Part shown: positions 5,624-44,014 of the stretch, in pieces | Position numbering within the stretch: the first letter of the stretch is position 1 | How the letters are laid out: the number at the start of each line of letters is the position of its first letter | NCBI RefSeq assembly: GCF_000787575.1 | Contig: NW_012236491.1 | Span: forward strand, 2,064 to 66,063 | From: Acytostelium subglobosum LB1 | Taxonomy: Eukaryota; Evosea; Eumycetozoa; Acytosteliales; Acytosteliaceae | Direction: 5' to 3' | Length of the DNA stretch: 64,000 nucleotides | Translations under genes and position numbers: made by a program | The notes under the pieces: generated by a model | What the model saw: only the letters and a program-made list of their open reading frames with translations | Told to the model about the DNA's origin: nothing | Databases searched by the model: none

Positions 5624-8166
5624 ATGTCTGGCTTGGACACATTGGTGAAGAGTGTATTATGTAATAAAGTGTTTGGTGCAGGTGTATATCAATGGACAGG
5701 TCAGTTCAATAGGTTGTTAGAGGATGATTGTAGATCATTACGTGGTGCAGATATCATCACTCTACGTCAATGTCTTGTACATACTGGTGATGACCTTCAA
5801 CGATTCATTCAACTCTTCAATCGCATGTACACTGAATGCTCTGTAGGCCATCACCTGATACAGCAATCACTACAAAGCCTCAATCAATCATCTGATCAAT
5901 CATCATCATCAAGGTGAGTGAGTGTGATCACACTAGCCAATCAATCAATCTGGAATCATCAACTTACCATCACTCTCATACACGCCACGCCAGTACCCTG
6001 ATCGCAACATTCAGATCACTGTTTGTAAGAATGATGCAAGGAAACAGGTCTAAGCATGTGGCATACTTGATCACATACTTTAAACAAATGCTGGAGGAGG
6101 ACAAGCATGACATATTCATCTTGTTGTTGAATGATTTGATGTCGGCAGTCGGTGACATCAGGTTAAGCTTGGACATGATAGATACACTGTGCGATCACAT
6201 CCCCGACGAATCAATGACACAGCACATCTGTTATCAAATGGCCTTCGATGCACTATCTCAACACACCGACATCAAGACCTATCAACGTGTCCTCGATTCA
6301 TACCCAACGCATGCTCATGGGGTGGTCATATCGCTGCTTCGTCTCCAAAATGGCGCAGCCCACGAGCCACTGTTTGCCCGGCGACAGCCCACGATGGTGG
6401 CATCACCAGACATCCGCTCACTGATCACGTACTACCAGACTCAGCATGGCATCAAGTACGAGCAGCTCGATCTCCTGATGTGCGCGGCACTCAAGCATGA
6501 GCGATACGATATCTTCAAAATCGTGCATGACAAGTTGGCAAAGGAGAAGCCGCGCGCACTCAAGGACTGCGAGGAATACCACCGACACATGGCCGCCTAT
6601 GCCAACACGGACATACTGACACACACCAAGTACTCGATCAGTACCAAAGCGCCCAAGTACTACAAGCACCTCAATACGGCGGCCGGCAAGGGCAACCTGG
6701 CCATTCTGAAACTCGTGCGCCAGGAGCTAGCCACAGACTCATTCCCCACCGGCAACACAATCTTTGGCGACTCCTACATGTTGGACGGTGCACTGCGAGG
6801 CGGCTACATTGAATGTGCACGATACATACTCGATGAGTGGGGCGACGCCATACAATCAAAGCACAAGCGATGGGTGCGATCGAATCACAGCACTGACAAA
6901 TGGCCTGTCAACTCACTGGCCATCGACGAACACACACTAGAGGTGATGGATATGTTGTTGGCACGAGATCAAGATGTACTATGTGGCTTTAGCGACCTCT
7001 ATATAGACGCGATCAAGGCCAATCGATCGGACATTGTTGAGCGAATCGAGCAGCTGTGGAACGAGGCTGGCGGTGAACCCTCGAGTAGCATCTCTCCACC
7101 ATTTATCACATTATTCGATCACCAACTCGCCCTAAACACTGCCATTCAATTCAATCGTGCCACATTCATACCAGCGATCTTAGCACGGAGACCGGTGGGA
7201 TCAACATTCGAGGTCAACCTGGACAATCTTGGAAGGGCCAGTATCGACGTCCAGCAAGTCCTCATGTGCCACGCACAGCCAGGAATGATTATGATGGTGA
7301 ATATGGTCAACAACGTGTCTCTGTACTTGCTTGAGCTCATCACAGGGTACGGCCACTTTGCCAGACAACCAACAATGACTCGCTTCTGTCTGTTCATGCA
7401 CGCGACCAACCTACCAGACGCGTATCCACTCTTGGCCAGCATGTACGTACTATGTCGCGACACCATAGCGCAACACAGATGCATCGATCGTATATGCCGA
7501 GACAGCGGCAACATCAAATCAATCATGTTCCTTCAGGAGAATCGCTCGCATGGCAGTGTCGAGGAGTGGCTGTTCCAAGCGCTGGCCGCTGGCAACCTCG
7601 AGACCGTCGACTACCTTCTCTCGGGCACACTGAACACCAACAGGAGTAGCACAATCACGTCTGGCCACTTCTTGCCTCGCGACATACGCGACTTTTTCCG
7701 CATTCATAGCTTGGAGACGATCGCGCGACTGCGTCCTGGCGTCATACCATTCATTTGGAGCAGGTTAGATGAACACAAACGTACAGAAAGAGATTACATC
7801 AAGGACATACTATGCTCGGATGGATCTAAAGCATGCGCCAGTCCACAAATATACCAAGTTATTGTCGATGCCTTTGACCCTGACAAGACCTGTGTTAGTT
7901 TGTCCGGGAATGATATCCCATTCATTTGGCCACCATCCATTGACATACTGCGTCAACTCATACTTATTGATGCACATGATACTATAAGAGAGATAATCAA
8001 ACAATTCACAACTTCCTCCTCATCATCATCAACTCAACAATCAATCTTCATTCAATACTCAATTGAAGAACAACAACAAATTGTACAGATATTATTACAA
8101 CATGGTTGGCTACTACCATCACTACTACTTCAAGATCGCAACAACAATGATATCACTAAAGAATAG
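5624..8166 (+). CDS. Ankyrin-like repeat protein, cluster copy 1
   Basis: The model is join(5624..5913,5994..8166), 820 residues. Exon 1 starts MSGLDTLVKSVLCNKVF and ends in a Ser/Gln/Asn linker; the donor GTGAGT at 5914 and acceptor CCAG at 5990-5993 keep phase (AG|T gives Ser) and lead into TLIATFRSLFV, which echoes the exon 1 start. Divergent ankyrin-type units recur (AAGKGNLAILKLVRQEL, GALRGGYIECARYILDEWG, ALAAGNLETVDYLLSG), matching a large dictyostelid-specific family of degenerate ankyrin proteins. The role is probably protein-protein interaction; no enzyme motif is seen. Without the splice, translation would need a GTG start, which is implausible. It is followed 195 bp downstream by two related genes on the same strand, so the cluster arose by tandem duplication. 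Confidence 0.8.
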
Positions 8167-38735: not shown

Positions 38736-41700
38736 ATGGCAGATACTTTATCAGATGACAATGGTGCGGCCAGTAGCAGCAGTGGCACGATAACTAATGG
38801 CACTGGCAGTGGTGGTGGCAATGGCAATGGAGGTAACAGCAATAGTAGTGTATCAGACACCAGTGGAAGCAGTGGAAACGAAGGATCAAGCTACCACAGA
38901 TTGTTGAGCAATCAAGAACAACAACAGAATCAACAACAACAACAACAACAACAAAGTCAACAACAACAGCAACATCATCAACATCATAGCCAACATCCAA
39001 CTCAACAACAACAACAACAGATTGAAGAGGATGATGCATTTGATTTGAATACAATGTACAGCATACCACATCATTATGGATATTATGGAGGATTCTATGG
39101 CAATGGACCAGGGGCGCGACGAAGACACAGCTATGAGAAGGGCTCGAGCAACTCGCGACGACCCATGATCCCGATGTTCTCATGGAATGCCGGCCTGTCA
39201 TCATCTTCATCTTCTTCTTCGTCTCGCTCGCCATCACCTCATCTCTTTACAATACTGGGCGACAACAATAATAATAATAATAATAATGGACAGTCACTGC
39301 CAGGCGCGTCAATGCCCTCAATCAGCTCGAGTTCCACCGAAGGATCACCGCCACTCAATTCGGTGGGCGGCAGCAAGTACCTCAAGGTGCCATCGATGGA
39401 CAACTTTCTTCACTCAAACTCGGCGTCTCTGCCCTCGCCCCTGCCCGTGCAGTCCGACTCGCTGTACCCGCCACCCTTATCTACATCACACCAACCAACG
39501 CCTCCAATGACACTTCCGAGCTTTGGCGGCACCAGCGTAGCGTCTCATCACAAATCACATCAATCACATCATTCCCCTTCCACGCCAAACCCAACCCAAT
39601 CCGCGACCGTCACGCCATCGGGGCAGCAACAGCAACAGCAACATCACCACCGAACGCTCGAGATCAAACATCCAGTGTATGAAAAGACCATGTACTTTGT
39701 CCACTTCATCCTGTCAGTGGTGCTGCTGTTCAATGTCGTGCTGCTGGTCTCCAAGCACTTCTTTTACAAGCTGCAGACGTGGAGTGGCGAGCGCGACAGC
39801 GTCAAGAGTCTCCTGCTGTTCATCAATCCGTTCCACGTCGTCTTCTCTTTGGTGGTGCTCCTGTTTCTGTTCCTGCAGCTGAAGGTACGCATACTGTTTG
39901 AGCACAATATCCACACGCGCTCGCATTTGCATCATCAGATCACCAAGAAGGAACAGCGTCAGGCGAGGAACTCGAGTGAGCTCAGCGATCAGGACCAGCC
40001 CCCTATCATAGTCAATCAGCAAGCTGCCAGCGACCCATCCTCATCATCATCATCATCACAGTACAAGCCAATGTTCATTGCACGCTCCTTGGACTACATG
40101 TTCCTTGGCCTGGCACTCTCAGGCTTTGTTAACACCATCTTTATTCAATCATACTTCAACCCAAAGGATGATTCCTTTGACCACGATACAATATTCAATG
40201 TAAGTCACCGAACAATCAATCAATCGATCACTCATCACTTCTTGATCCTAACCATGATCACGCCAACATCTAGATTTGCTCAGCGGTTGAGTTCATATTT
40301 GTTGGAATAACATTGAACTTTGCAAGCTTTAGCGTGCGATCGACGAAGCAGCATAGACAACATACTCATCATAGAGGTGGCTCAACAACATCACATCATG
40401 CGCAGCAACAGCAACAGGAAGAGGAGCAGCCTCCCAAGGGCGGCACAGTAGCCCTGCGATTCATCAAGAAGTTTCTGGCACGAGTCTATCTCTCACTGGC
40501 AGTCCTCTACATCTTGCTTGTTGCACGCGTCAACTACGAGCCACTGGGCCGCCTGATCACAGCGATTGATCACAGCGATGACATCACACTCAATCATTTC
40601 CAGTTGCCCCTTTTGCTCATCATCTACTTCCTGCAGATTGTCCTTCTCTTCTTTGAGTACAGCCAGAACAACTCATATCGACTGGCGTCAATGATCATCT
40701 CGACACTGTTCGTGTGGCTCATCGCGTTTGACGCCACCCAATTCTCATTCAGGTCGTTCGAGTCCTTCCCGATGGAGCGCCTGGTGATGCGTCGGTGGAT
40801 CCGCTGCTTCGTCGTGGCATTCCCGTGCATCGGCACCTCGCTGGACTACATCGTCGACTGGAAGATAGTCAACAATCGTTACAATGACGTGCTGCATCAG
40901 ATGGATGGCGTGCTACAGGAGAACCTCCACTTCCAGGAGCGCATAGGCAATCAGAAGAGGAAGGTCGAGATCAACAATCAGTTCCTCACCAGCACACTCA
41001 GTCAGTTCAAGAAGACAATCAACTCGGCAAGTCCAATGATTGGCTTCCTGATGGACTCTGATGTGCAGCCTCATCAAGCGCCCTACCTCCAAAAGATATC
41101 CAAAGCCTTTGATCAACTCAATCAAATGTCTAAAGAGGTTCTCTACTTCTCCGAGATCAAGGCACTCAAGAGTTCGGACTGTGAGAGTAAGTTTAAAGCT
41201 GTCGCGCGGGCCATGCGTCGTCCACAGAGTGCATTACTAACATCAATCAATCAGGAACATTGTTTGGCGTGGAGGCATTGATGGAAGAGATAATTGCCAA
41301 TCCTACAACAAGGAGCTACTTTGAGGAGCGTGAGGTCGACCTCTGCTACTTGATCGCACCAAATGTACCGGCGACAATCACTGGCGACCCAACCAAACTC
41401 AAGCATATACTGCATCGACTCGTCAACACTGGACTCAAGACAACGTATCAAGGAGAGATCGTTGTGAAGGTCACAACACAGCCCGATCCGAACAGACCGG
41501 GCACCGAGTTGCTGTCATTCTCCGTGACCGACACTGGTTGTGGTGTCGAAGAGGATGTGATGCCGGCCATGTTTGAGCCCTACGTTTTGGCGATGGTCTA
41601 TGGCTTTGAGAATGAGTTTGGCATTGGCCTGGACATGCCCATCTGCTACCAACTCTCGGTGCTCCTGGGCGGCACCCTACAGTACGCCCCAAACATACCG

Positions 41701-44014
41701 ACTGGCAATCACTTTGTCCTCACCATACCATACGAGTCGCATCACGCTGGCAACACCGCCNNNNNNNNNNNNNNNNNNNNNNNNNNNNNNNNNNNNNNNN
41801 NNNNNNNNNNNNNNNNNNNNNNNNNNNNNNNNNNNNNNNNNNNNNNNNNNNNNNNNNNNNAGTGGCGGTAGCAGTATCATGAGGACTGCACAATCAAAAT
41901 GGGGCACAGGACACAAAGCATTGGTGGTGGACGATAACCTCAACATCATTGAAGCGATCGAGATGCACCTGGAGCCCATCGGTCTGACCATCGTAAAGGC
42001 GCCCAGCGCCATCATTGCCACGTCTATCCTGGGCGTCGAGAAGGATATTAGCATCATATTTATCGATGCAATGGTAAGTTACCAAATTGATTAGCATCAA
42101 TCAATCAATCAATTATTTAATTAATCAATCAATCAATCAATTATTTATAGTTGCCTGGATTGAATATCGATGAGATCAAGCAACTCAAGTCCGACCCGTC
42201 AAAGAGCAACAGGAATCCTCCCCTTGTCGTGATGTGTACCAACAAGCAAAAGAAATCCTTCTCCAACCAAGGTCTTCATTTCTTATTCAAACCTGTAAGT
42301 ATCACGCGAACGAATGATTAATGGCTTGGCCTTGAGTCCCAAGGATTCAATGGCCGTTAGGTTGCGACTCCTTGATGCAATGACATTACATCCGCTCGTT
42401 CATGTACTGACATGCCCCTCTCACATGCGCCCGCGCTGGCGTGTCGCTTCACACCAACATAGCTCAAAAAGGAGCAGCTGCTCACCATCACCCACTCGTT
42501 GATAACGAGCCACCAACCGACAAACCTGTACACGACAGCCACAGCCAATGTCACGCCGCACTATGCACCATCGCCCATGGCAACGAACATCATATCCCAG
42601 ACGACCAAGCCAGTGGCTGGCGCGCTGTATACACCCACGATCAAGCTGCCACAGATGCTTCAGAGCGGCATTGGCTCAACTAGAACAACAACACAGCACA
42701 ATGTCGCGCCGCTCTCGAGAGCGATGCAGCAGCTGTCCACCAACAACTCACCGCAGTCCAATCCCATCTCGCCGGCCAAGCAATCAATGGGCGACTCGAC
42801 CGCCGCTCCAACATCAGCAGCGGGATCATCCCTTGCCGCGTACTTCAATCTCAATACGGCCACGCCAACACACACACCGAGGCAAACGCCTAGGAACTCG
42901 CCCCTCGCATCACCAATACTGCTTTCGGCGCCTGTGCCACCACTCGCCTTGCTGCCGCCACAAGAGGACCTCCTGTCCAATGCCAGCAACCCGTCCACAA
43001 GCACTCATATGGACCTGCTGACGAATGGGCGGTGTCGATCCGACACCGCCCATCCCTCTGTTACCTGGCCTCAACGCATCCAACACCTCAGACGATGTGC
43101 CAATAGAGGTGACGCCTGCGTCCGCTTCTGTACAGACGAGCCCCAAGCTGGACGCGACACCCGTGCCCACCCTCCCCGAGATCGACTTTGACGACGATAC
43201 GACATCGTCCAACTCGGTGCACAAGCAAGAGTATGTCGAGCAGAAGCAGAACATGTCGCAGCAAAGCACTGGGCCGCAGACGCCTCGCAGCTACAGCTCA
43301 GTCAACATCATGTTGGTCGAGGACAACCCCGTCAACGCGAGGATTGCCACGACCGTGCTGCAGAAGCACAGCTTCAAGGTGGAGCTTCAGTCCAACGGAC
43401 AGCTGGCGCTCGAGAAGATCAAGATCGCGCACGCCACGTACGATCTGATCCTGATGGACATTCACATGCCCGTCATGGACGGCATCACCTGCGCCAGGAT
43501 GATCCGCAAGTTTGAGGGCGAGCACAACCTGCGCAAGATACCGATTATCGCGTTGACTGCCGACACGTCGGCAGGCCACAAGAGCATCTGTCTGGACGCA
43601 GGCTGCAACGAGTTCATGACCAAGCCACTGGACTACCCTATACTCATCTCCCTGTTAAAGACACTCATTGATTCGCCCGAACAGCAACAACTGATGCAGC
43701 AACAACTGATGCAGCAACAGCAACAGCAATTACAACAACAGACACAACAGACGCAGCACCAACAGCATCAACAGCAACAACATCAATTACAACAACAACA
43801 ACAACAGATACAACAACAACAGCATCAGATACAGCAACAACAACATCAGATACAACAGCAACAGCAACATCAACAACAACAACAGCAACAGCAACACGAT
43901 GTAGTCCTTCAGCAATCCTCCTCTAGTATACCCATCCTTCCAGCGACCCCTACTGGTCAGCACCAGACGCCTCTCCTAAACACTGCAGCAACAAGCATTC
44001 AAACGATGCCTTGA
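38736..44014 (+). CDS. Membrane hybrid histidine kinase with degenerate H-box and two receiver domains
   Basis: The exons are 38736..40199, 40274..41186, 41255..42073, 42151..42294 and 42463..44014; all four introns close in phase. The product is about 1,600 residues, with 100 N in exon 3 and a one-base frame change near 43026-43052. Order: Ser/Gln/Asn-rich tail; about eight membrane spans between 330 and 690; a HisKA-like helix pair (about 720-785) where the usual SHEIRTP reads LSQFKKT, so Ser731 replaces the phospho-acceptor His; an HATPase-like domain with DTGCG and GIGL but an atypical N-box (RLVNTGLKTT); receiver 1 (ALVVDDN, FIDAMLPG, FLFKP); and receiver 2 (IMLVEDN, LILMDIHMPVMDG, ALTAD, TKPLD) with all catalytic residues. 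A poly-Gln tail ends it. The family feeds the RdeA-RegA/cAMP phosphorelay. Loss of the His suggests a phosphatase or relay-modulating role, as proposed for DokA-type proteins. Confidence 0.88.
41761..41860. other. 100-N assembly gap in the histidine kinase gene
   Basis: Exactly 100 undetermined bases lie between the ATPase-like domain and receiver 1. The reading frame before and after differs, so the real gap length is not 100 or differs modulo three. A conventional-size scaffold gap is the simplest reading. Confidence 0.95.
43026..43052. repeat. Perfect 12-bp-arm inverted repeat at a frame change
   Basis: TGGGCGGTGTCG and its exact reverse complement CGACACCGCCCA flank a three-base loop ATC within the kinase coding region. 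Frame 1 (…STHMDLLTN) and the following frame (GGVDPTPPIPLLPG) meet exactly here. Confidence 0.9.
43681..43905 (+). repeat. CAA/CAG (poly-Gln) coding repeat
   Basis: This is a mixed CAA/CAG tract with ATG, CAT and ATA interruptions, encoding the Gln/His-rich tail downstream of receiver 2. Confidence 0.9.

Follow-up and report, generated by a model that had tools for sequence, protein, structure and literature searches.

A window of 64,000 nucleotides from Acytostelium subglobosum LB1 (contig NW_012236491.1, positions 2,064 to 66,063 of the forward strand; "window" here means this whole stretch, and coordinates refer to it unless another contig is named) contains at 38736-44014, on the forward strand, a gene for a predicted membrane-bound hybrid histidine kinase in which the phospho-acceptor histidine is replaced by serine. 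Of the 32 2-kb bins of the window, 30 have a guanine-cytosine content of 0.38 to 0.53. Comparisons with other kinases were made inside this one genome, searched as 30.73 Mb in 56 contigs, where a paralogue, L037 (C56:571500-579500), lacks the histidine as well.

The gene model is a prediction, drawn by eye and by homology. It begins at an ATG at 38736, upstream of the start in a preliminary description made from the sequence (40274..44014), and is interrupted by a gap of 100 N and by a break of the frame. Four introns, all GTAAGT...AG, were recognized (40200-40273, 41187-41254, 42074-42150 and 42295-42462). Exon 1 (38736..40199), an open frame running from the ATG to the GTAAGT donor at 40200, encodes a low-complexity N-terminal region, membrane spans 1-3 (39696-39752, 39810-39866 and 40089-40145) and the first part of span 4. 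Exon 2 (40274..41186), delimited by a TAG acceptor at 40271-40273 and the GTAAGT donor at 41187, encodes the remainder of span 4, spans 5-8, a coiled linker and DHp-like helices bearing the motif LSQFKKT, and matches a query taken from L037 at 30% identity. The spans were placed by Kyte-Doolittle hydropathy: eight 19-residue segments score at least 1.4, and exon 1 holds the first three, so that the earlier count of about eight spans and the membrane residence drawn from it stand as predictions. Exon 3 can be followed from 41255 to 41760 and encodes a HATPase_c-like domain; joined, the exons ahead of the gap form an open frame of 961 codons.

The 100-N stretch (41761..41860) was taken as an assembly gap inside the gene, the true size of which may differ. 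Beyond it, receiver 1 (REC1) is encoded in two parts on the forward strand, 41861..42073 with VVDDN and FIDAM (the latter containing the acceptor Asp) and 42151..42294 with CTN (Thr) and FKP (Lys), separated and bounded by the last two introns. The end of receiver 1 and a low-complexity linker occupy 42463..43029. The frame changes near 43025-43058, between this linker and receiver 2 (REC2), at an inverted repeat (43020..43058; 18-nucleotide arms, 89% complementary, 3-nucleotide loop), and the break is possibly an assembly fault or possibly a real lesion. A final open frame (43025..44014, forward strand) carries receiver 2 (43307-43678, with VEDN, LMD, ALTA and TKP; Response_reg) and a Gln/His-rich tail, after which it ends; the Pfam scan found no cyclase match. 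The tail (43680-43910) is long, and L037, which ends soon after its own receiver, is without it.

Within the degenerate, HisKA-like DHp hairpin (40976..41170, placed by alignments), the H-box (40997-41017) reads LSQFKKT; in place of the phospho-acceptor codon (41000-41002) stands AGT, encoding serine. The residues at His+1 and His+4 are Gln and Lys in both this gene and L037. In HisKA proteins, an acidic residue at His+1 is described as required for kinase activity and Thr or Asn at His+4 for phosphatase activity (PMC3510030), so neither classical transmitter activity is expected of either copy. The N-box Asn is likewise replaced, by Thr, in NTGLKTT (41425-41445); misalignment of this box was considered and rejected, the register being fixed by NNSLKAT in the paralogue. 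The two losses had been proposed in the preliminary description and both hold, as does its intact G1 (DTGCG, 41530-41544), but the G2 it also called intact (FGIGL, 41617-41631) is only partly canonical, departing from the usual GTGLGL at the first Gly. The F-box reads FEPY (41572-41583). With the acceptor His lost and the N-box changed, the transmitter is not expected to work as an ordinary autokinase. A single sequencing error was also rejected as the source of the His loss: no fewer than two substitutions separate CAC or CAT from AGT, the H-box is altered throughout, and L037 lacks the histidine too, which rules against a base-calling error.

Failure to align with HisKA at all had been named beforehand as one finding that would tell against this assignment. 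We found that the region aligns with a histidine kinase core: the best PDB match of the spliced DHp-CA piece is the solved histidine kinase 7z8n (query 30-250, 1.7e-18), with the H-box block free of gaps and the serine lying over the histidine of SHE-x-RTP, and the second-best is the RetS histidine kinase structure 6dk7 (8.1e-14). The Pfam HATPase_c (PF02518) match has E values of 2.7e-14 and 1.2e-13, with exon 3 scoring 54.0 bits against a cut-off of 26.4. HisKA (PF00512) alone scores 13.3 bits, below its curated cut-off of 26.9; none of the 20 HisKA matches at E<=1 in a six-frame search of the genome falls on this locus, and a PDB search with alignment A1 gave at best 7z8n at 0.022. A hidden Markov model (HMM) trained on the genome's own 17 His-bearing DHps scores this DHp at 15.0 bits, a value equalled by none of 5000 shuffles. 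The aligned part covers model positions 22-65, the second half of the hairpin after the H-box, and the H-box register therefore rests on the 7z8n and MAFFT alignments. In the MAFFT alignment with the 17 DHp cores, no gap interrupts the block before the loop, and the acceptor column holds His in 17/17 cores, Ser here and Asn in L037. The residue before the acceptor His is Ser in 16 of these cores and Cys in one. A histidine near the hairpin turn (41072-41074) is common to both copies (VQPHQAPYL here and VQSHQVPYL in L037) and occurs at that column in 0/17 His-bearing cores.

L037 has its parts in the same order: membrane region, DHp-like region, HATPase_c and two receivers. A query from its spans 5-8 and the start of its DHp matched only itself and this locus in the genome; a scan of the contigs for relatives with alignment A1 gave 98 pattern matches, none confirmed, a weak negative since both patterns derived from the membrane part. 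Identity between the copies varies by part, from 52/178 in transmembrane (TM) spans 1-4, 38/132 in TM5-8 and 10/37 in the linker to 33/71 in the DHp (ungapped), 80/158 in the CA, 27/54 and 27/43 in the two parts of REC1, and 92/125 in REC2. L037 shows six hydropathy segments of at least 1.4, versus eight here, the counterparts of spans 4 and 6 staying below that value. It keeps the N-box Asn (LLNNSLKAT), G1 and a GLG G2, and its frame breaks in receiver 1, at about 5780-5803 on the gene strand, just before the Lys. Taken alone, its DHp scores 1.3 bits against the own-genome HMM, which 841 of 5000 shuffles reach; its assignment as a DHp relies on the ungapped 33/71 identity and on its place between the membrane part and HATPase_c. 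With Asn at the acceptor position of L037, the loss of His would most simply predate the duplication that produced the pair.

Both receivers keep their phosphorylation residues, including the acidic triads named in the preliminary description, and only the second is clear by score. Receiver 1 retains Asp-Asp, Asp, Thr and Lys, and its spliced sequence reaches 29.7 bits, just under the Pfam Response_reg cut-off of 30.2. Receiver 2 scores 77.9 bits against the same cut-off (8.3e-22) with all phosphorylation residues present, and it is the best-kept part of the protein in comparison with L037 (74% identical). Against the receivers of seven other kinases its identity is 31-42%; these were located with a receiver pattern that picked up receivers at only 8 of the 18 loci fetched, which makes the comparison partial.

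We compared the rates at which the parts of the pair have changed. In a DHp+CA tree of 19 rows, built without the AcrA-like gene L038 and drawn at midpoint root, this gene and L037 form one clade (support 100/100), with branch lengths since their split of 0.89 and 0.65, respectively. The nonsynonymous (dN) and synonymous (dS) rates were 0.41 and 1.52 for the DHp and 0.75 and 1.27 for TM5-8; REC2 had a dN of 0.21 with dS saturated, and dS was saturated also for the CA. DHp identity between the copies is 0.45 at a CA identity of 0.50, which lies within the range (0.26-0.69) of 64 comparison pairs of other kinases of the genome (CA identity 0.42-0.60, aligned length above 85). The His-less DHp has thus changed no faster relative to the CA since the split than in ordinary kinases, and a maintained fold is favoured over decay, the comparison averaging both lineages and being compatible with recent decay of one copy. 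This favours a maintained pseudo-kinase rather than decay or base error.

A search of the genome with HATPase_c returned 27 matches, 20 of which lie in 19 kinase-like genes (a gene on C52 has two cores); the seven weaker matches, none beside a receiver match, were left outside the survey. Sixteen of the 19 genes keep the His in every core (17/17 cores, after exclusion of one spurious pattern match, C43_2), this gene and L037 lack it, and L038 is AcrA-like with a degenerate core. These cores were located by a His-containing pattern, the 16 genes having been preselected by HATPase_c and receiver matches, and each gave a core. L038 was considered as a third member beside the pair and rejected, being an AcrA-like cyclase. 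Among potential relay partners, there are two RdeA-like Hpt genes (L055, C43:470989-471231, and L056, C30:43601-43843), both with HSHDIKGSSSY, and a RegA-like gene on C46 with a receiver match just upstream of PDEase matches, as in RegA. The RdeA-like genes number two, as do the pseudo-kinase copies.

These findings suggest that the gene encodes a pseudo-histidine kinase of the membrane that uses receiver 2 to draw phosphate off an RdeA-type relay protein, a reading to which we give nearly, but not quite, an even chance. Both copies have lost the kinase and phosphatase residues while the other domains are conserved, and RdeA-like and RegA-like genes are present in the genome. The protein would be a multi-span receptor of the hybrid-histidine-kinase type, incapable of autophosphorylation, whose DHp and HATPase domains most likely serve dimerization and transmission of a signal from the membrane. 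Receiver 2 most likely takes phosphate from the phosphotransfer protein and then loses it by hydrolysis, such that receptor occupancy, by whatever ligand there may be, would tune the phosphate reaching RegA; with the sink open, RegA activity would be lower and cyclic AMP (cAMP) and PKA activity higher. Because receiver 2 is preserved better than any other part and retains every phosphorylation residue, and the transmitter appears non-working, a phosphate sink is the simplest use for it. There is precedent in RetS, whose REC2 is described as a phosphate sink for GacS (PMC5992135), and in D. discoideum a lowering of RegA activity has been attributed to DokA, DhkA and DhkM (PMC5055082, PMC4686194). 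Of the phosphatase or sink in the relay that the preliminary description had envisaged, a classical HisKA phosphatase is opposed by the Lys at His+4 in both copies, and a sink acting through receiver 2 would be allowed.

Several observations weigh against this interpretation. The stem of the pair is 3.1 changes per column, which would also fit a long period of weak constraint and is so long that placement of the pair among the other kinases is uncertain. The membrane part is merely 29% identical between the copies, which may therefore sense different things. AlphaFold models of exons 2 and 3 (mean pLDDT, predicted local distance difference test, 48.0 and 49.6) were too poor for use, and a sink is not separable from a scaffold by sequence alone. 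Finally, each copy has a frame break in the assembly, before receiver 2 here and in receiver 1 in L037, which matters if it is real.

Those two breaks, together with the longer branch of this gene and the additional N-box and G2 losses that it alone has suffered, are what would be expected if the His loss reflected relaxed selection after duplication and the locus were heading for a pseudogene. This is quite improbable, given that all four introns keep GTAAGT...AG, that 961 codons are open across the joined exons before the gap, that REC2 is 74% identical between copies at saturated dS, and that the break here falls at an inverted repeat in the linker, a plausible site of assembly error. Still less probable is that autophosphorylation persists, either on the substituted Ser or Asn or on the hairpin-turn His (41072-41074). 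Both copies have that His, which is absent at that column from all 17 His-bearing cores, and L037 retains the N-box Asn, G1 and a GLG G2. In DHp folds, however, much of the helix bundle separates the hairpin turn from the usual acceptor site, a geometry that makes a relocated acceptor unlikely, and this gene has lost the N-box Asn. Furthermore, the Glu at His+1 that is described as needed for kinase activity (PMC3510030) is Gln in both copies.

A DHp changing at an ordinary pace, with the pair at 0.45 inside the 0.26-0.69 range of the 64 comparisons, would also suit a protein that pairs with an active histidine kinase in mixed dimers to block or tune it, its own receivers being secondary. HisKA dimers are usually specific, and a close His-bearing partner was not found in the genome, where the best CA identity apart from L037 is 0.32. 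RetS again offers a parallel, since it inhibits GacS autophosphorylation (PMC5992135), and we consider a dominant partner of this kind unlikely, with a small but real chance. A scaffold or reader, in which the DHp-CA is kept only for dimerization or for sensing a phosphorylated receiver and no phosphate flows through the protein, has models in AcrA and in DivL, the latter described as binding DivK~P without kinase or phosphatase activity (PMC4211667). That account is likewise of low probability, leaving unexplained why receiver 2, with its phosphorylation residues complete, is the most conserved part.

Among the nearest comparisons is RetS of Pseudomonas aeruginosa, a sensor hybrid described as non-autophosphorylating, with a REC2 that takes its partner's phosphate (PMC5992135). 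RetS differs in keeping the His and the HExxT phosphatase motif and having lost the G-boxes, whereas this gene lost the H-box and keeps G1; RetS-like working is possible, but the retained HExxT and missing G-boxes that mark the RetS type are not what the gene has. DivL is not known to have receivers. This pseudo-histidine kinase of Caulobacter crescentus resembles the present protein in the replaced acceptor His (Tyr550) and the reported want of kinase and phosphatase activity, and differs in having PAS sensor domains, binding DivK~P and moving no phosphate (PMC4211667). The dictyostelid adenylyl cyclase AcrA, of which L038 is the copy in this genome, has a published non-functional kinase domain (PMC3188802), but it also has a C-terminal cyclase domain, which this pair lacks. 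The D. discoideum kinases DhkB, DhkE, DhkK and DhkM (multi-span) and DokA, DhkA and DhkM (phosphatase-acting), set beside this pair by their descriptions only, are hybrid kinases linked to the RdeA-RegA relay, and several are membrane-bound (PMC1420674, PMC5055082, PMC4686194).

Other proteins are already known to contain inactive kinases of this kind, and the non-functional domain of AcrA was already in print. Among the matches listed in a search of the literature on dictyostelid histidine kinases and pseudokinases, titles and abstract openings describe no His-less hybrid kinase, which is weak evidence of novelty, subscription literature lying mostly outside that search. According to one source, D. 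purpureum has 14 kinases, each with a D. discoideum orthologue, and these are thought to be older than the dictyostelid radiation (PMC3188802); a named Dhk may therefore be the orthologue of this gene, which counts against novelty. The same is true of the kinase counts for D. discoideum, given as 13 functional genes by one review (PMC7316887) and as 14 to 16 by others, which leaves room for known non-functional kinases in that species.

A phosphatase role in the RdeA-RegA relay is ascribed to several dictyostelid hybrid kinases, and a receptor without a usable transmitter would set the sink apart from the kinase function, so that changing a single residue of receiver 2 could test it. The pair would also add a maintained eukaryotic pseudo-histidine kinase pair beside AcrA. 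By extension, the two genes might represent a small dictyostelid family of ligand-gated phosphate-drain receptors, in which the transmitter lacks kinase and HisKA-phosphatase residues, x-Q-x-K-K-T is shared in place of H-E-x-R-T-P and the terminal receiver alone moves phosphate, a eukaryotic counterpart of RetS evolved through loss of the H-box and not of the ATP site. We regard this broader proposal as doubtful. With two RdeA-like proteins in the genome, the two drains may serve one relay each.

Two of the His-bearing kinases found in the survey have features of note. L050 (C56:436500-444500) has the H-box CHEVRTP, with Cys preceding the acceptor His where Ser is usual. L045 (C52:1357500-1366500) combines two kinase cores and two receiver matches in a single gene, resembling the layout described for DhkD.

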